Under the pieces are notes generated by a model. That model saw only the letters and a list, made by a program, of their open reading frames with translations. It had not been told where the DNA came from and did not search any database. From assembly GCA_011321725.1 (NCBI GenBank), contig DROX01000255.1:1-50460 (forward strand): 50,460 bases of DNA, in the 5' to 3' direction. Position numbers and translations under genes: made by a program. The stretch's first letter is position 1. The number at the start of each line of letters is the position of its first letter. Shown piece by piece: positions 14,095 to 21,578 of this stretch. The DNA comes from Nitrospirota bacterium. GTDB taxonomy: Bacteria > Nitrospirota > Thermodesulfovibrionia > Thermodesulfovibrionales > JdFR-85.

Positions 14095-14955
14095 TCAGGA
14101 GCTTAGCATCTTCTTCTTGATAACAAGAATGGGACTGCTTATCTTTTTCATTACACTATTGGCTACACTGCCCATAAGCAGTCTGCTCAGCCCTGTTCTG
14201 CCCTCGCTCCCGAGGATTACAATCCCTGGATTGACATCCCTGCAGACCTGGACCAATGTATCGCTTATTGAGCCCTCCTTTACAAGCCCTGTACACCTGA
14301 TGCCCATATCCTTTGCCCCTTTAACAATACGCTGAACATTCTCCCTTGCCCTGACAAAGAAGCTCTCCAGAAGCTCTGGTGCATGTATCTGCAATACCTC
14401 ATTAAAGTCCACCACAGTCAATACATACAAAGTGCCACCGAATCTTTTGGTCAGTAATAGTGCATCCTCCTCTGCACCTTTGTTCTTCTCGGAACCATCT
14501 GTGGCAAGCAACAGCCTTTCAAAGGGTCCCGGAAGAAATGTATCGGTGACTACAAGACAGTTACCACTGCAAAACCCTATTATTTCTCCTGTTATGTGGA
14601 TAACGCCGCTCTTCAGTCCCTTTGAAAGCACAACAAGATCAGGCCTGAGTGAATCAATAGACCTTTTTATCTCATCAAGGGGGATGCCGATCTTTACAAT
14701 AACATCCTCACATCTGAGTCTGGTATGGCTGATTTCAGCACAGATTGTCTCCCTTGTTTCTTCTATGAAATCACTCTTCACTGCCTGGGCAACCTTGCCA
14801 ATAACACCGATGGTCCTGGTTGTATCCCTTACAGCAGACTCATCAATCATGCTGAGAACCCTTATATGTGCCCCGATCATATCTGCCCAGAATTCGGCTG
14901 CACTCAGCAGGTCCTTTCTCATGCGTGCATCATCTATGACCAGTATCTCTTTCAT
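14095..14955 (-). CDS. Tandem-domain universal stress protein
   Basis: A 286-residue protein of two Usp domains. The first (MKEILVIDDARM to about residue 140) is degenerate in its nucleotide motif (FCSGNCLVVTD). The second (about 145-285) has the ATP-binding pattern G-x2-G-x9-GS in GSEGRTGLSRLLMGSVANSV and ends in SSPILVIKKK. Usp proteins bind ATP and modulate stress physiology. It lies beyond the strong terminator that ends the TSUP operon, so it probably has its own promoter; TATGAT lies shortly after the terminator T-run. GGGAG directly abuts the ATG, which is unusually close. Confidence 0.9.
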   Translation of the reverse strand: MKEILVIDDARMRKDLLSAAEFWADMIGAHIRVLSMIDESAVRDTTRTIGVIGKVAQAVKSDFIEETRETICAEISHTRLRCEDVIVKIGIPLDEIKRSIDSLRPDLVVLSKGLKSGVIHITGEIIGFCSGNCLVVTDTFLPGPFERLLLATDGSEKNKGAEEDALLLTKRFGGTLYVLTVVDFNEVLQIHAPELLESFFVRARENVQRIVKGAKDMGIRCTGLVKEGSISDTLVQVCRDVNPGIVILGSEGRTGLSRLLMGSVANSVMKKISSPILVIKKKMLSS

Positions 14956-15061: not shown

Positions 15062-15847
15062 TCACTTCGCAAGTATCTTGTACCAGATCTCAACACTTGT
15101 AAAAATAATGACCAGCATCAGGGAGTACCTCAGGACAAGTGCCGGCGTCTTCTTGCTCACCATACTGCCAAGCTGTGCAGAGGGAATTGAGCTGATAATC
15201 AGGGCAAGTGCAAGTAGCCAGTCAACCTGACCTGTGGCCATCTTACCAATGGCACCCATCACCGCGCCTATAAAGACTATACCAAGGCTCGTTCCAATGG
15301 TAACCCTGATGGGGATTTTCAGGATGTAGATCATTACGGGTATCAGGATAAATCCACCTCCTGCACCAACCATACCTGCCAGTGAACCGATTATGAAACC
15401 CAGGATGATCGCAAGTATCCTGTTGAACTCTATGCTGTCAGGATCGGTTATATTTTCAGCATCCTCTGTCCTTGGGGGAATGAACATCATCACGGCTGCG
15501 ATCACGGCAATCACACCAAAGGCAACCATGAGAAGTTCGTTACTCATGTATTTTGAGATGGTAGAACCGAATCCAGAGCCGATGGCCATTGCCACACCAA
15601 GGGAGAGCATCAGCTTCATGCTTACAAATCTGTTCTTCCTGTGTCTGATTACACCTGAAAACGATGCAAACACAACCTGTATCATTGAAAGCCCTGCAAC
15701 GGCCTTCATGCTGAGCGCACCAACCCCGAGAAGCTTTGGCACCATCAGCATGAGGGGGATCATAATTATGGCGCCCCCGAGCCCAAGGAGCCCTGAAAGG
15801 AATCCACCAAACAGCCCAAGAATCAACAGTACAATAAACATAGCCAT
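15062..15847 (-). CDS. TauE/SafE (TSUP) family anion exporter
   Basis: A 261-residue inner-membrane protein with about eight hydrophobic helices, starting ILGLFGGFLSGLLGLGGAIIMIPL and with the second family repeat AGMVGAGGGFILIPVMIYIL. TSUP members (PF01925) carry sulfite, sulfoacetate, thiosulfate or related organic and inorganic anions; the substrate here is inferred only from the family. AAGGAGG precedes the ATG. It is the last gene of a three-gene unit (Usp-like, 63-residue protein, TSUP) that begins with a sigma-54-like promoter and ends at a strong terminator. The NtrC-type regulator just upstream is the likely activator. Confidence 0.9.
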   Translation of the reverse strand: MAMFIVLLILGLFGGFLSGLLGLGGAIIMIPLMLMVPKLLGVGALSMKAVAGLSMIQVVFASFSGVIRHRKNRFVSMKLMLSLGVAMAIGSGFGSTISKYMSNELLMVAFGVIAVIAAVMMFIPPRTEDAENITDPDSIEFNRILAIILGFIIGSLAGMVGAGGGFILIPVMIYILKIPIRVTIGTSLGIVFIGAVMGAIGKMATGQVDWLLALALIISSIPSAQLGSMVSKKTPALVLRYSLMLVIIFTSVEIWYKILAK

Positions 15848-15859
15848 TTTATCGCCTCC

Positions 15860-16051
15860 TTATTTGCCTTCCACGGGATTTGTAGTTAGATGCATCATCT
15901 CCTGCCTCTTCTTTGAGAGGTCTTTATGTTCCAGGCCTTCCTCTGACTCCCTGATTATCTGCAGTGCCAGCTCATAGTCGCCATGCTGCGCCACTGCAGC
16001 TGCCGCCATCTCATCCTCAAACCTTTTTATTATTCTTCTTAAAAATCTCAT
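15860..16051 (-). CDS. Small protein with the EDEM-AAA-AQHGD module
   Basis: A 63-residue hydrophilic, probably helical protein that I cannot assign to a named family. The segment RFEDEMAAAAVAQHGDYELA is closely matched inside the neighbouring 160-residue Usp-like protein (RLEDEMSAAAMAQHGDLGTA), followed in both by Q-I and later by D-x-S-x-K. It is therefore a stand-alone form of a module of about 40 residues. A perfect AAAGGAGG lies seven bases before the ATG. It sits 12 bases before the TSUP gene and 26 bases after the Usp-like gene, so it is surely co-transcribed. A role as adaptor or regulator of the transporter is an inference. Confidence 0.8.
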   Translation of the reverse strand: MRFLRRIIKRFEDEMAAAAVAQHGDYELALQIIRESEEGLEHKDLSKKRQEMMHLTTNPVEGK

Positions 16052-16077
16052 CTCTATCCTCCTTTAAAAGTGGTTTC

Positions 16078-16560
16078 TCAGACCCTTGCCGGTCTGGACA
16101 TTGTTACAACCGGTCTTGATATCTTCCTTCTCAGTTTCTTGAAGCTCAGCTTCCTGTCACTGTCCATCAGTGAAGGACTGAGGATCACGATCTCAAGGGT
16201 TGGATTGTTCTGGAGAATCTTCTCAATGGCTGAAATAACCTCATCAGTGCTCCAGCTGTGTTCTGTCACGAGACCGCCTCCCTTTGACATGGACTGAAGT
16301 ACCCTCACCTTCTGGCTGGCATCCTTTTTTATCCTTTCATCTCTCTCTGAAAGGATCTGCCTTGCAGTGCCAAGATCACCATGCTGTGCCATTGCCGCAG
16401 CTGACATCTCATCCTCAAGCCTCCCGAGCCCCTCCCTGTTATAATGGAAGAGGACAAACACACCACCTTCAGATATCCTTGCCAGCTCTGCTGCATAGCT
16501 GAAGCCTTCACCGAAGTCAGCTGATTCACCCTTTGTTACAAAGAGCACCCTGCTTTTCAC
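16078..16560 (-). CDS. Universal-stress-like protein with embedded AQHGD module
   Basis: A 160-residue cytoplasmic protein. The N-terminus (KSRVLFVTKGESADFGEGFSYA) and C-terminus (LEIVILSPSLMDSD, SRPVVTMSRP) resemble the alpha/beta strands of a Usp-type fold, but the G-x2-G-x9-G(S/T) ATP motif is absent. Between them sits EDEMSAAAMAQHGD, shared with the adjacent 63-residue protein. The start is GTG, supported by AAAGGAGG upstream. A sigma-54-like promoter lies about 62 bases before it. It is the first gene of the TSUP operon. The exact function is unknown; nucleotide-free Usp-type regulators are one possibility. Confidence 0.8.
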   Translation of the reverse strand: MKSRVLFVTKGESADFGEGFSYAAELARISEGGVFVLFHYNREGLGRLEDEMSAAAMAQHGDLGTARQILSERDERIKKDASQKVRVLQSMSKGGGLVTEHSWSTDEVISAIEKILQNNPTLEIVILSPSLMDSDRKLSFKKLRRKISRPVVTMSRPARV

Positions 16561-16621: not shown

Positions 16622-16637
16622 CTCAATATACGTGCCA
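16622..16637 (-). promoter_or_regulatory. Sigma-54-type promoter for the Usp-like/63-aa/TSUP operon
   Basis: On the minus strand TGGCAC-GTATA-TTGAG matches the -24/-12 consensus TGGCAC-N5-TTGCW except for A in place of the -12 C. It is correctly oriented, about 60 bases before the GTG start, and the gene immediately upstream encodes an NtrC-family activator with the GAFTGA sigma-54 contact loop. Confidence 0.6.
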
Positions 16638-16950: not shown

Positions 16951-18285
16951 TTACTCCTCTTTCAGTATCCTCCACAGGCTGGTCCTTGAGATACCAAGCA
17001 TCTCTGCAGCCTTTGTCCTGTTACCATCAACAAGCTCAAGCACCTTCTGGGCGTACTCCCTTGTAAGCTCATCTACGGTTTTTATGGTCTCAGGAGAGAC
17101 TGTTTCAATTTTGAACAGCTGCATGCTCACGGGCAACGATTCGGGTCTGATATACGGGGTCTTTTCCAGAATCACTGCCCTTTCAATGATATTCTCCAGC
17201 TCTCTTACATTACCAGGATAGCTATAGGACTTGAGTATCTCCATGGCCTCTCTTGTGAAGCCCTTGATATTCCTGTTGGCTGACCTTGCATGCTTCTGGA
17301 GGAAATATCTGCTCAGCGGAGGTATATCCTCCCTCCGTTCCCTGAGCGGTGGGATGTATATCTCCATCACATTAAGACGGTAATAGAGGTCCTTCCTGAA
17401 CCTGCCCTTTTCAATCAGATCCCTGAGATTCTGATTGGTGGCAGCAATGAATCTTACATCCACCTTTATTGGCCTTGTTCCACCCACCCTGAAGAACTCC
17501 TTGTCTTCAATTACCTTCAGGAGTTTGGCCTGCAGCACAGGTGGCATCTCGGCTATCTCATCAAGAAAAAGGGTACCCCTATGGGCAATCTCTATAAGGC
17601 CCTTCTTGGTGGTAACAGCACCTGTGAAGGCACCCTTCTCATGACCAAAAAGCTCGCTTGCAAGGAGTTGCTCCGTAAATATGGCACAGTTGATTGCAAG
17701 AAAGGGTTCATTTCTTCGCATGCCGGTGTAATGGATCAGTTTTGCCACAAGCCCCTTCCCTGTCCCACTCTCACCTGTGATTATCACGTTACAGTCAGAC
17801 TGGGAGATGCTCTTTATAATATCAACAATCTGGAGCATCTTCTTACTGCGAGCGATAAATGTGGGCAGGTCCCTGTCTATTCCAAGGGATGTCCTGAGTG
17901 CTATGTTCTGGTTCTCAAGGCTTTTTTTTTCAAAAATCTTTCTTATCTTCAGGATCAGCTCATCAAGATTGAAGGGCTTTGTTATGTAATCAAAGGCACC
18001 CCTCTTCATGGCCTCCACAGCAGAGTCAATACTGCCAAAACCCGTAATGATTATCACCTCTGTCTCTGGCCATTCATCCTTAATCCGTTCAAGCAGCGTT
18101 ATTCCATCCATTCCAGGCATCTTGATGTCTGTTATCACCACATCAAAATGCTCCTCCTTGAGTCTTTCCATGGCTGCAGCACCATCAGCAACGCCTGATA
18201 CAGTATACCCTTCTTTTTCAAGGGCATAAATCAGGTGCTTGAGCGTGATCTGTTCATCCTCTGCTATTAGTATCTTAAGGCTCAT
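16951..18285 (-). CDS. NtrC-family sigma-54-dependent response regulator (left system)
   Basis: A 444-residue transcription activator. The receiver domain carries the phospho-acceptor Asp in VVITDIKMPGMDG. The AAA+ domain has Walker A GESGTGKG, the sigma-54 contact loop GHEKGAFTGA, and Walker B-type LFLDEIAEMP. The C-terminal Fis-type helix-turn-helix is TKAAEMLGISRTSLWRIL. Its ATG overlaps the stop of the kinase gene upstream (ATGA), so they form one unit. The next operon downstream (Usp-like, 63-aa, TSUP) has a sigma-54-like promoter, making it the probable target. Confidence 0.96.
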   Translation of the reverse strand: MSLKILIAEDEQITLKHLIYALEKEGYTVSGVADGAAAMERLKEEHFDVVITDIKMPGMDGITLLERIKDEWPETEVIIITGFGSIDSAVEAMKRGAFDYITKPFNLDELILKIRKIFEKKSLENQNIALRTSLGIDRDLPTFIARSKKMLQIVDIIKSISQSDCNVIITGESGTGKGLVAKLIHYTGMRRNEPFLAINCAIFTEQLLASELFGHEKGAFTGAVTTKKGLIEIAHRGTLFLDEIAEMPPVLQAKLLKVIEDKEFFRVGGTRPIKVDVRFIAATNQNLRDLIEKGRFRKDLYYRLNVMEIYIPPLRERREDIPPLSRYFLQKHARSANRNIKGFTREAMEILKSYSYPGNVRELENIIERAVILEKTPYIRPESLPVSMQLFKIETVSPETIKTVDELTREYAQKVLELVDGNRTKAAEMLGISRTSLWRILKEE

Positions 18286-19835
18286 ATACCCCTTGGCAAA
18301 TATATGGTAAAGGTTGTACCTCTCTCATTACTTGTTGCCTCTATCCTGCCAAAATGGTTCTTGATTATATTATAAACTATTGACAGACCAAGACCTGTGC
18401 CCTTGTCCTTGGTGCTGAAAAAGGGATCAAATATTTTATCAATATACTCAGCAGGGATGCCAGGGCCTGTATCCGTGACCTCTACCTTCACAACATCCTT
18501 CTCATCATGAATCCTCACCGTTATTTCACCTTCTCCCCTCATCGCATCAATAGCATTTGAAAAGAGGTTAACAAAGACCCTCTCCATCTGCCCCGGATCC
18601 ACGGATATATAAACCTCCTCAGGTGCATGGATGGAAAATCTGACCCCTGTCTCAGGGTATATCTTCTCTATCTGCTCATAGACCCCCCTGATAAGCTCAG
18701 GCAGGTTTACTCGCATCTTCTCGGGCTTCTTTTCCCTGGCAAACTCCAGCAGGTCTCCCACAATCTTCTTTACCCTCAGGGTCTGGCTAAGGATATCCTC
18801 CACTGTTTCTTTTATAATACCCTCACTGGTTCCCTTTACCTCTCTCGCAAGTATCTGTGCAGAGATGTGGATATTGTTGAGAGGGTTGTTCAGTTCATGG
18901 GCAACACCAGAGGCAAGTGTCCCTATTGCGGCAAGTTTCCTGTGTCTGATCAACTCTTCCTCCTTCTTGATTAGCTGTACCTCCCTGTCCCTTAGCGCCT
19001 CTGCCATGCTGTTGTAGGTCCTGATGAGGGTACTGACCTCATCCTTGCCGGAAGGAAATGGCAGCGGGGAATAAAAACCCTCGCCTGTCTTCTCTATGGT
19101 TACCATCAGCTCGTTAAGTCTCTTGACGATATTCTGGGTTACCCTGAAGAGGGCTATAAAGCCAAAGAGAAAGGCAAAGGGGAAGACGACCAGGATGCCT
19201 ATCTCGGATGCCTTAATCACATACTGGACCCTGTAGCGGGCTGCCTTGTCAATCTCTCTGGAGATATCAATGATCTCCTCACCTGAGCTGCGCAGCTTCT
19301 TGACCTGATCGTTGATCTCTTTGAGATGGGTAACAAGCCTGCCATCCCCTCTAAGTGAAAATATCTTTTTCAGCACCGTAATGGTCTGTACAGGGTGTTC
19401 CAGAAAGGTAGACTCCATGACAGGTACGAAGTAACTGTACCTGTCTGAGTAACCTTTAAGCTGCCTGATCTCCCCGATTGTTAACCTTGCCAGCTCTGTT
19501 ATGTAGCTGAAGCGGTCCTCGTACTCACCTATCTTGCCAGCAAGCCTTATGAGATTCCTGTCCTTGGGATTCAAACCCTTGAATGTCGTGATCAGCTGTT
19601 TTGTTTCGGCAAGATACTGGTTTATCTTCTCAACCTCTGTAAAATCACCGTAGAGGAAGAAGTTCTTCTCATGCCGCCTTATCTGTAGGGTCTTTGTCCG
19701 GATGCTGTCCGAGAGCTCAAGAAAGGTAAAATCCCTGCGGGCCTCAAAAAAATCAAACATAGCCAGCGTACCGAATAAGGCCACTATGGCAAAGCTGGCA
19801 GAGAATATGAGTATGATCTTCTTCTTGATAGACAT
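18282..19835 (-). CDS. Sensor histidine kinase (left system)
   Basis: A 517-residue inner-membrane kinase. It has a first membrane helix (about residues 6-28), a helical periplasmic sensor of about 175 residues (RRHEKNFFLYGDF region), a second helix (about 212-232), HAMP, a short coiled coil, then HisKA with the phosphorylated His in GVAHELNNPLNNI and HATPase with NLFSNAIDAM, DTGPGIP and GTGLGLSIV. Unlike its mirror-image partner, it lacks a CxxCH motif. The RRHEKNF element resembles helical sensor modules of chemoreceptors. It is divergent from the second kinase gene across about 90 bases and overlaps its cognate regulator by four bases. Confidence 0.94.
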   Translation of the reverse strand: MSIKKKIILIFSASFAIVALFGTLAMFDFFEARRDFTFLELSDSIRTKTLQIRRHEKNFFLYGDFTEVEKINQYLAETKQLITTFKGLNPKDRNLIRLAGKIGEYEDRFSYITELARLTIGEIRQLKGYSDRYSYFVPVMESTFLEHPVQTITVLKKIFSLRGDGRLVTHLKEINDQVKKLRSSGEEIIDISREIDKAARYRVQYVIKASEIGILVVFPFAFLFGFIALFRVTQNIVKRLNELMVTIEKTGEGFYSPLPFPSGKDEVSTLIRTYNSMAEALRDREVQLIKKEEELIRHRKLAAIGTLASGVAHELNNPLNNIHISAQILAREVKGTSEGIIKETVEDILSQTLRVKKIVGDLLEFAREKKPEKMRVNLPELIRGVYEQIEKIYPETGVRFSIHAPEEVYISVDPGQMERVFVNLFSNAIDAMRGEGEITVRIHDEKDVVKVEVTDTGPGIPAEYIDKIFDPFFSTKDKGTGLGLSIVYNIIKNHFGRIEATSNERGTTFTIYLPRGI

Positions 19836-19881
19836 GATTTTTTATTTTAACTCTTTTAGCAGAAAAGCTGCATCGCCTTGA

Positions 19882-19912
19882 TAGACAGGGCTCGGTTGAT
19901 TTACAGTATAAT
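19882..19912 (+). promoter_or_regulatory. Promoter of the right-hand kinase gene
   Basis: TAGACA and TATAAT are separated by 19 bases. A perfect 11-base palindrome (TACGGACCGTA, 19916-19926) sits between the -10 and the ATG at 19929, where a bound protein could block initiation. No Shine-Dalgarno is seen. Confidence 0.45.
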
Positions 19913-19928
19913 ACATACGGACCGTACA

Positions 19929-21578
19929 ATGGCCATTATGAAGATCAAAGGACTAAATAGCCTCAGTTTCAAATTCAGTTTTATCGTGGGGGTAATCCTC
20001 TTTCTCTTCTCAACGCTCCTTTCCATGATACTTTACTATTACCTGAGAGCACACGCCATTGAGAATGCAGAGAGAAAGACCCTGATTATAATGACCTATG
20101 TCAAGGCTATTGGTGATTATGTAAAAGACTCCTTCAGGCCAAGGATGCTTGAGATCATCTCAAGGTTAGACCCTGAGGATGAATTCCTGGTTGAATCAAT
20201 CTCCACCACGCATGTGAATATGGAGATAATGAAAAAATTCAACAAGGATATACATGACTATGTATACAAAAGGGTCTCTGACAGACCCTTGAACCCCCAA
20301 CACCGGGCTGACAGTTTCCACATGAAGATGATAGAGTATTTCAGAAAGCATCGTGACAGAGATTCCTGGCACTCCATTGTAAAACTTGACAACAGGGAGA
20401 CCCTTGTCTATGCCCGTCCTGTAATAAGCAACAAGGGATGTCTCCTGTGCCACGGAGAAAAGGAGAGGGCACCTGCTGCAATAGTCAAAAAATACGGCAG
20501 GGATGGCAACTTCGGCTGGCAGGCTGGCAGGATAGTGGGGGTTGAGACCGTCTCAATCCCAATGGATAAAACATTTGAGTATCTCCGGGGTATTGCATTG
20601 AGCACCTTTCTGTTTGGACTGGTAACACTGGGAGCCCTCTTTTTTGCAATCTATGAGACCTTTACACAGCTTGTGACCCGCCCCATAGGGAGGCTCTCAA
20701 ATGTCTTCAAAGGGATAGTCAGTGGTTCATTACCCCTTGGCAAGGACATTGACGTTACAAACAAGGATGAGATAGGTGAACTCACAGAATCCTTTAACAT
20801 ACTGGCAAGACACCTCCATGAGGCACAGGAAAGGCTGAAGAGAACGGCAAGGATTGAAAGGCAGATGATGGAAACAGAGAAGCTTGCTGCCCTTGGACAG
20901 CTCTCGGCAGGCATAGCCCATGAGATAAACAATCCCATTGGTGGCATAAAGCTCTGCTTCAACAACCTGATCAATACAGAGATGGATGAAGAAACCAAAC
21001 AGCAGCACATAGAGGTGGTACAGTCAGGGCTGGACAGGATCCAGGCGATAGTAAAACAGCTGCTTGAATTCTCAAGGAACACTCCCCTCAACATCACGCC
21101 TGTAAAGGTAGACTCCATCATAGACAATGTACTGAAGATCTCGGAGTATACAATATCAAAAAAGGGCATAAAGATAGAGAGAGACTCCTCACCCGATATA
21201 CCAACGCTTTGGGTTGACTCAAACAAGATGGAACAGGTACTCCTGAACATAATAATAAATGCCATACAGGCGATGGATGAAGGTGGCACCCTGACCATCA
21301 AAACCTGGTTAGAGGGTGAAAGATGCAATATATCAATATCTGACACAGGCAGGGGCATCCCCGGGGATATCATCTCCAGGATATTTGACCCCTTCTTTAC
21401 CACAAAGGAGGTGGGAGAGGGTACCGGGCTCGGGCTTACCGTAAGTAAGGCCATTGTGGAACAACATGGCGGTTCAATAGAGGTTGAGACTTCAGAAAGA
21501 GGAACAACCTTTACAGTAAGGATACCATTGGGTCAGGAACCTGAGACCCTCAAGGGAGGCAATCCTCATGACCGATAG
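19929..21578 (+). CDS. Haem-binding (Tll0287/DUF3365-like) sensor histidine kinase (right system)
   Basis: A 549-residue inner-membrane kinase. The track's TTG start at 19878 lies before the promoter, so ATG 19929 (MAIMKIKGL) is chosen. One membrane helix (about 13-35) leads to a periplasmic sensor of about 180 residues containing C171-L-L-C174-H175, within YARPVISNKGCLLCHGE; this is the c-type haem motif in the context typical of Tll0287-like (DUF3365) domains. A second helix (about 221-245), HAMP, HisKA (AGIAHEINNPIGG) and HATPase (NIIINAIQAM, DTGRGIP, GTGLGLTVSKAI) follow. It probably senses redox state or a haem ligand such as NO, CO or sulfide. It overlaps the regulator gene by 11 bases. 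Confidence 0.93.
   Translation: MAIMKIKGLNSLSFKFSFIVGVILFLFSTLLSMILYYYLRAHAIENAERKTLIIMTYVKAIGDYVKDSFRPRMLEIISRLDPEDEFLVESISTTHVNMEIMKKFNKDIHDYVYKRVSDRPLNPQHRADSFHMKMIEYFRKHRDRDSWHSIVKLDNRETLVYARPVISNKGCLLCHGEKERAPAAIVKKYGRDGNFGWQAGRIVGVETVSIPMDKTFEYLRGIALSTFLFGLVTLGALFFAIYETFTQLVTRPIGRLSNVFKGIVSGSLPLGKDIDVTNKDEIGELTESFNILARHLHEAQERLKRTARIERQMMETEKLAALGQLSAGIAHEINNPIGGIKLCFNNLINTEMDEETKQQHIEVVQSGLDRIQAIVKQLLEFSRNTPLNITPVKVDSIIDNVLKISEYTISKKGIKIERDSSPDIPTLWVDSNKMEQVLLNIIINAIQAMDEGGTLTIKTWLEGERCNISISDTGRGIPGDIISRIFDPFFTTKEVGEGTGLGLTVSKAIVEQHGGSIEVETSERGTTFTVRIPLGQEPETLKGGNPHDR

Follow-up and report, generated by a model that had tools for sequence, protein, structure and literature searches.

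Genes and signals at the locus

The window, which is the whole stretch of 50,460 nucleotides analysed from a Nitrospirota genome, carries on its minus strand a histidine kinase gene, an NtrC-type regulator gene, a 390-bp gap, a gene for a 160-aa protein, a gene for a 63-aa protein and a TSUP transporter gene, in that order, followed by a terminator-like hairpin and a tandem universal stress protein (Usp) gene. The segment common to the 160-aa and 63-aa proteins is called the module below. The features are:

18282..19835 (-): sensor histidine kinase (HAMP-HisKA-HATPase), 517 aa; Pfam domains over cut-off; present at the equivalent place in many module loci
16951..18285 (-): NtrC-type response regulator (receiver, sigma54-activator AAA domain and Fis HTH), 444 aa; PF00072, PF00158 and PF02954 over cut-off
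16622..16637 (-): probable sigma54 -24/-12 promoter, TGGCACGTATATTGAG; 10/12 consensus positions
16078..16560 (-): 160-aa Usp-like protein with inserted hairpin module and no ATP motif; orthologs across the order
16309..16437 (-): module in the 160-aa protein, residues 42-84; profile match 1.6e-17, AlphaFold2 model
15860..16051 (-): 63-aa free-standing module protein; dN/dS <1 in close orthologs elsewhere
15914..16045 (-): module in the 63-aa protein; profile match 6.0e-19
15062..15847 (-): TauE/SafE (TSUP) anion transporter, 261 aa; PF01925, 5.6e-50, 170.6 bits
14994..15020 (-): hairpin resembling an intrinsic terminator, located between the TSUP gene and the double-Usp gene
14095..14955 (-): tandem universal stress protein, 286 aa; PF00582, 6.2e-25, two stretches

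Both module genes have a strong Shine-Dalgarno sequence, AAAGGAGGTGAGACA before the GTG start of the 160-aa gene and AAAGGAGGATAGAG before the ATG start of the 63-aa gene. The 261-aa transporter matched PF01925 far over the cut-off of 32.6 bits and along nearly the whole profile (positions 1-235 of 237), which places it in the TSUP family, and it carries no module. An earlier note on this DNA had placed the gene pair ahead of a TSUP transporter, which was correct because the TSUP gene begins 12 bases beyond the end of the 63-aa gene. The tandem Usp, as read from its sequence, keeps G-2X-G-9X-GS in its second half. A second kinase and regulator pair (19878-21578; next regulator gene 455 aa) adjoins the window kinase and is divergent from it.

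The shared module and the fold of the 160-aa protein

In a single BLASTP comparison, the 63-aa and 160-aa proteins shared 23 identities over 46 residues (50%, E=7e-11), so that the module claimed for both neighbours, here of about 35 residues, was borne out. The further matches reported downstream, A-x-QI and D-x-S-x-K, are likewise present in both proteins (LALQI/TARQI and KDLSKK/KDASQK). Chance similarity was ruled out by this E value together with profile matches across the phylum down to 8e-20. Neither window module protein had a Pfam or NCBIfam match over cut-off, nor did any of 50 small module proteins scanned, in agreement with the earlier statement that no named domain applies; the module had no sequence relative in the PDB (best E 0.19), and neither it nor its consensus is described in the literature searched. 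The small module genes are real protein-coding genes under purifying selection, because Nei-Gojobori dN/dS between close relatives was 0.15-0.71 (median about 0.3) in the 14 closest pairs, which are not independent and include one pair from within a single locus.

The AlphaFold2 model of the 160-aa protein reached a pLDDT of 84.5 with 33 homologues in the input alignment. It comprises beta1 (4-10), alpha1 (20-29), beta2 (33-39), an extra helix (45-59), a turn at G61-D62, a long helix (63-91), beta3 (98-104), alpha3 (108-118), beta4 (122-127) and beta5 (151-153), giving the topology beta1-alpha1-beta2-(module)-alpha2-beta3-alpha3-beta4-alpha4-beta5, in which the module follows beta-strand 2 as an insert. 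Foldseek against the PDB ranked Usps at the top (2dum, 6hcd and 3s3t; E 2-3e-4, best 2.4e-4, probability 1.00), and the matches also included TeaD (3hgm) and the KdpD Usp domain (7ji4); model and search together assign the protein a Usp alpha/beta fold. From the model and these matches, the module is predicted to be a helical hairpin whose second helix (63-91) runs on as Usp helix alpha-2. In the Pfam Usp search (PF00582, cut-off 24 bits), two of three insert-type orthologs passed (L014, 25.4 bits; L024, 25.9 bits), while L006 and the 160-aa protein itself had no match. The earlier proposal of an insertion in a Usp-like fold is thus supported by the predicted structure, by Foldseek and by two of the three relatives.

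The motif G-2X-G-9X-G(S/T) defines the ATP-binding Usp subfamily. It is absent from the 160-aa protein after beta-4 (ILSPSLMDSDRKLSFKK; also given as ILSPSLMDSDRKLSFKKLRRKISRPVVT), and the alignment consensus has an invariant S-P and no glycine motif. The 160-aa protein thus lacks the motif, as had been claimed, and falls outside the ATP-binding subfamily. TeaD, which belongs to the TRAP transporter TeaABC, and the KdpD Usp domain resemble it in having a Usp fold beside or joined to a transport system, whereas in the 160-aa protein the ATP motif is gone and the hairpin is inserted.

Below cut-off, the module matched profiles of TPR_4, TPR_6, PPR, FimV_Cterm and helices 1-2 of EIIA-Lac, all of which are helix-G-helix hairpins. 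Its predicted helices (45-59 and 63 onward) and the columns A15, F18, A19, G22, F24 and A27 follow the TPR-like pattern of a helical hairpin with spaced small and aromatic residues, and TPR_4, TPR_6 and the FimV/HubP C-terminal domain share with it a helix-turn-helix in which Gly and Ala are spaced as in TPRs. In contrast to TPR and FimV, the module has its own invariant core, FAEAGE, and occurs free or inserted in one to three copies. The best TPR_4 score, in a protein with three copies, was 23.2 bits against a curated cut-off of 27, and the window proteins had no TPR match. Most carriers have one copy and none has more than three, in place of the several adjacent repeats of a TPR superhelix. 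A model of a tandem small protein was of low confidence (pLDDT 60) and too poor for module packing to be read. The module is described here as a TPR-like hairpin by form and not as a member of the TPR family, because all of these matches are hairpins below cut-off and it has no sequence relative in the PDB.

Distribution, carriers and genomic neighbours

The earlier note had named a similarity confined to this locus as grounds for refutation. Instead, of the 198 Nitrospirota genomes sampled, 63 had a match to the module profile, representing 44 of 96 genera; the module also occurs in many Desulfobacterota, and full-length relatives of the 160-aa protein occur across the order. The genome of the window gave four good matches, two at the window locus and the other two within one 215-aa protein encoded on contig 12; a weak match at C78 proved to be a prismane/CO-dehydrogenase fragment and was rejected. 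Because the initial alignment (A2) proved too diverse to scan the collection, a tighter one (A4) took its place. Scanning GTDB representatives with it gave 140 relatives, from which 80 loci were kept, mostly from Nitrospirota and Desulfobacterota and biased by A4 towards FAE[AT]GEF variants; because of this bias, genomic contexts were re-tested on whole genomes without the filter. Isolated records assigned to Thiotrichaceae, Deferribacteres, Gaiellales and Actinomycetes may be binning errors.

The 80 loci and the window together contained 179 module-bearing ORFs. Sorted automatically by module position, with a few misassignments, these comprised free single modules (57 ORFs), free tandem modules (11), modules inserted in Usp-like proteins (39), N-terminal modules (44, mostly on Usp-like proteins), C-terminal modules (18, mostly on receiver proteins), modules joined to a 2-TM protein (7) and modules inside a PPDK_N/PEP-utiliser protein (3). 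One operon type thus contains six or more kinds of carrier (free, tandem, Usp, CheY receiver, 2-TM and PPDK_N protein). The earlier description of a free-standing and a Usp-embedded form held for both forms and was too narrow, since receivers, 2-TM proteins, PEP-synthase-like proteins and tandem small proteins also carry the module. The consensus was KK-F-E-D-x-M-x-A-x-A-F-A-E-A-G-E-F-E-T-A-R-E-I-L, and a common core ran through all carriers (A15 96%, F18 96%, A19 100%, E20 96%, G22 91% and A27 90% in 194-196 copies). The 2-TM family has the module in Desulfobacterota (115 aa) and lacks it in Nitrospirota (80-100 aa); because one family exists in both states, the module is gained or lost as a unit. 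These results indicate a genuine, conserved mini-domain that has no name yet and belongs to a regulatory setting known in part.

Individual carriers showed further features. In three PEP-synthase-like proteins (PPDK_N plus PEP-utilisers; L060:3590-6256, L066:12649-14818 and L111:11773-14439), the module lies inside the nucleotide-binding domain at residues ~193-220, and a paralogue beside the last of these (L111:9159-11759) was not flagged as a carrier. Among N-terminal fusions, L059:8001-8474 and others, the Usp-like part often retains two cysteine motifs (GC[LI]K and either DC or EC), which could form a redox or metal site. Two adjoining free-standing module genes at L131:5497-5840 are 85% identical and are a recent tandem duplication.

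Free and inserted modules of the same locus had a similarity of 0.517 against 0.501 in permuted pairs (p=0.06), and free modules compared with N-terminal fusions had 0.565 against 0.533 (p=0.003). This slight likeness within loci represents weak coevolution, which is compatible with contact and no proof of it.

The clustering with TSUP genes suggested as a check in the earlier note was confirmed when all TauE genes and module copies of ten whole genomes were mapped: TauE lay within 5 kb of 31 of 35 copies (0.93 expected), and near 20 of 22 module loci. Of the four copies without a TauE gene nearby, three belong to genome G021 and are flanked by a kinase-NtrC pair on one side and a TrkA_C-containing CitMHS/Na_sulph_symp transporter on the other, an arrangement matching the contig-12 locus of the window's own genome. 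There, the 215-aa protein (L139:7660-8307; two N-terminal modules and a Usp domain) is encoded between a kinase-NtrC pair and a CitMHS/Na_sulph_symp-TrkA_C transporter, with TauE and transporter-like genes next. Across the 81 loci, TauE lay within 6 kb of a module in 64, and TauE or DASS was present in 68; neighbours within 6 kb also included kinases (67), response regulators (64) and Usps (48). A common order in Nitrospirota was kinase-NtrC, Usp with insert, small protein, 2-TM protein, TauE (~362 aa) and tandem Usp (~284 aa). Many loci have a second TauE paralogue (for example L074:12057-12845 and L066:11092-11874) paired with a PF09608 (Alph_Pro_TM) membrane protein, often directly after the Usp-with-insert gene. 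A natural 640-aa fusion of TauE with two Usp stretches (L105:8738-10660) supports contact between TSUP transporters and Usps. TSUP members of sulfate reducers are mostly uncharacterised (PMC5840216), and no literature combining TSUP with universal stress proteins was found.

Transcription units were scanned upstream for TGGCACG-N4-TTGCW at 10 or more of 12 matches. Sites preceded 54 of 88 module units, compared with 5 of 304 other units of the same loci and 13 of 1,760 shuffles (Fisher 8e-37, on units that are related and hence not independent). The window site, at 16637-16622, lies 61 nt ahead of the start codon (GTG) of the 160-aa gene, and its mismatches are the last two positions of the -12 element. 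Module operons follow or face kinase-NtrC pairs, and many also face the receiver-domain Lon protease described below. Sigma54 control of the window operon is likely, because the NtrC-type regulator gene lies directly upstream of the promoter-like site.

Some module genes adjoin a Lon protease of ~666 aa, found in 8 of 80 loci, in which a receiver domain precedes the AAA domain (Response_reg-AAA-Lon_C, 3/3 scanned). Examples are L111:5546-7546 (-), L104:5399-7402 (-), L146:9706-11703 (+) and L149:883-2916 (+), all adjoining module genes. A receiver-Lon was called at 110 bits or more against its N-terminal 115 residues, where canonical Lon reaches at most 106. The dsrA gene, over its curated cut-off, was present in 55 of 63 module genomes (the window's own included) compared with 29 of 135 others, and receiver-Lon in 25 of 198 Nitrospirota genomes, together with the module in 23 of these (Fisher 2.5e-11), both sets of counts being confounded by phylogeny, with whole Nitrospirota families lacking dsrA and the module alike. 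Receiver-Lon lay within 1 kb of a module gene in 16 of the 23 genomes, mostly on the opposite strand, and 3 of 4 receiver-Lon loci in Desulfobacterota had adjoining opposite-strand module genes; one of these three loci continues with a DASS-like transporter and two kinase-regulator pairs, named by sequence resemblance. Most module genomes lack receiver-Lon, and the window's own genome (assembly 96% complete) had only a canonical Lon (797-aa frame, 82.5 bits).

Two systems of Desulfovibrio vulgaris (D. vulgaris) resemble the operon in the window. The receiver-Lon DVU3303, the kinase DVU3304 and the sigma54-type regulator DVU3305 control DVU3302-3298, whose products are hypothetical or membrane proteins, with UspA domains in some of them (PMC3333781, PMC4641369), and the putative anion transporter DVU3299 matters under chlorate (PMC10102598). 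Like the window, with its kinase, sigma54 regulator, Usp/anion-transporter operon and sigma54 promoter, this system places a kinase and a sigma54-activating regulator over an operon in which genes for Usp-type proteins and an anion transporter stand with hypothetical and membrane-protein genes. A receiver-Lon gene adjoins that operon, which is also the case at many module loci, whereas the window has none. The papers on DVU3298-DVU3305 make no mention of a shared module, and the hairpin module would be expected among the DVU3302-3300 proteins because the gene content closely resembles module operons. The second system, DVU0539-DVU0545, consists of a kinase, a sigma54 regulator, two Usps, a PSE transporter and a 133-aa membrane protein and responds to molybdate; its Usp DVU0542 and its kinase matter for growth with molybdate (PMC10102598). 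Its functional parts list equals that of the window, except that its transporter is of the PSE family and that of the window is TSUP.

Candidate roles of the module

We consider it about evenly balanced that the module is a mobile, TPR-like docking mini-domain for protein-protein contact, marking the regulators of a sigma54-controlled anion-transport system. This reading draws on a Rosetta-stone pattern, in which one short module recurs on many proteins of one operon type and also exists in free copies. It is favoured further by the predicted hairpin joined to the Usp core, the linkage to TSUP or DASS genes, the sigma54 sites with adjoining kinase and NtrC genes, the dsrA counts, and published D. 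vulgaris genetics in which comparable clusters respond to molybdate and chlorate (PMC10102598). The low-confidence tandem model, the slight same-locus likeness of free and fused modules and the module-free TSUP protein of the window speak against it. The kinase and NtrC protein would sense a sulfur-oxyanion or energy state and switch the operon on, and the hairpins would thereafter bind one another or a single shared partner. At the window, the hairpin would bring the ATP-motif-less Usp-like protein to the TSUP transporter (or elsewhere to a DASS transporter) and set transporter activity, while the free 63-aa protein may be a bridging or competing adaptor. In other loci, receivers, the 2-TM subunit or the PEP-synthase-like protein could be recruited to the transporter through the same hairpin. 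A broader and more tentative form, which we hold possible and somewhat doubtful, is that the hairpin is an interchangeable plug of ~35 residues assembling Usp-like proteins, phospho-receivers, PEP-synthase-like proteins, 2-TM proteins and perhaps receiver-Lon on TSUP/DASS sulfur-oxyanion transporters, a scheme undescribed in sulfur-cycling bacteria.

TPR-like hairpins often self-associate, and the module might instead be a structural extension, spread by local duplication, that stabilises its carrier or makes it self-oligomerise with no contact between different carriers. Tandem duplications are indeed common, and in the model the second helix merely continues as Usp helix alpha-2. We regard this explanation as unlikely, since the near-invariant core on unrelated carriers exceeds what a filler would need, and different carriers co-occur in one operon type.

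The association with receiver-Lon, both in shared genomes and in adjoining genes of Nitrospirota and Desulfobacterota, raises another alternative, in which the module is a tag or adaptor for regulated proteolysis: a phosphorylated receiver-Lon would degrade module proteins, and the free small protein would be an adaptor or decoy. The joint action of DVU3303 with DVU3304/3305 in D. vulgaris (PMC3333781, PMC10102598) agrees with this. However, most module genomes, that of the window included, lack the protease, a degron would not usually be located inside folded domains, as the module is, and in its conservation pattern the module is more like a packed hairpin than like a short linear tag. Proteolysis is thus a serious rival where receiver-Lon is present and rather improbable as the role of the module in general.

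That the module is a diverged fragment of an EIIA-Lac-like phosphotransfer protein of the PTS, by which the operon would be connected to PEP-dependent phosphorylation, is very improbable: PEP-synthase-like carriers exist, TIGR00823 (EIIA-LAC) matched 11 of 50 small proteins (best 4.1e-5; 3.2e-6 for a triple-module protein) and PF02255 one of the 50 (1.6e-4), but the TIGR00823 matches span only model positions 21-58 of 99 (the helix 1-2 region) at 27 bits at best against a curated cut-off of 137, the module lacks the third helix, which bears the phosphorylated histidine, no histidine is conserved at the core columns, and TPR, PPR and FimV profiles match the same hairpin.

Sulfate-reducing and other sulfur-cycling bacteria have many TSUP transporters with substrates and control unknown (PMC5840216), and the module labels the regulators of these transporters. 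As a marker, it offers a route to partners, supplies a missing domain family name and allows annotation of many 'hypothetical' proteins of 55-65 aa. It also connects the phospho-regulated Lon, so far noted as an oddity of D. vulgaris, with an identifiable group of proteins that may be its substrates or partners, and it provides a means to test the regulation of sulfur-oxyanion traffic.
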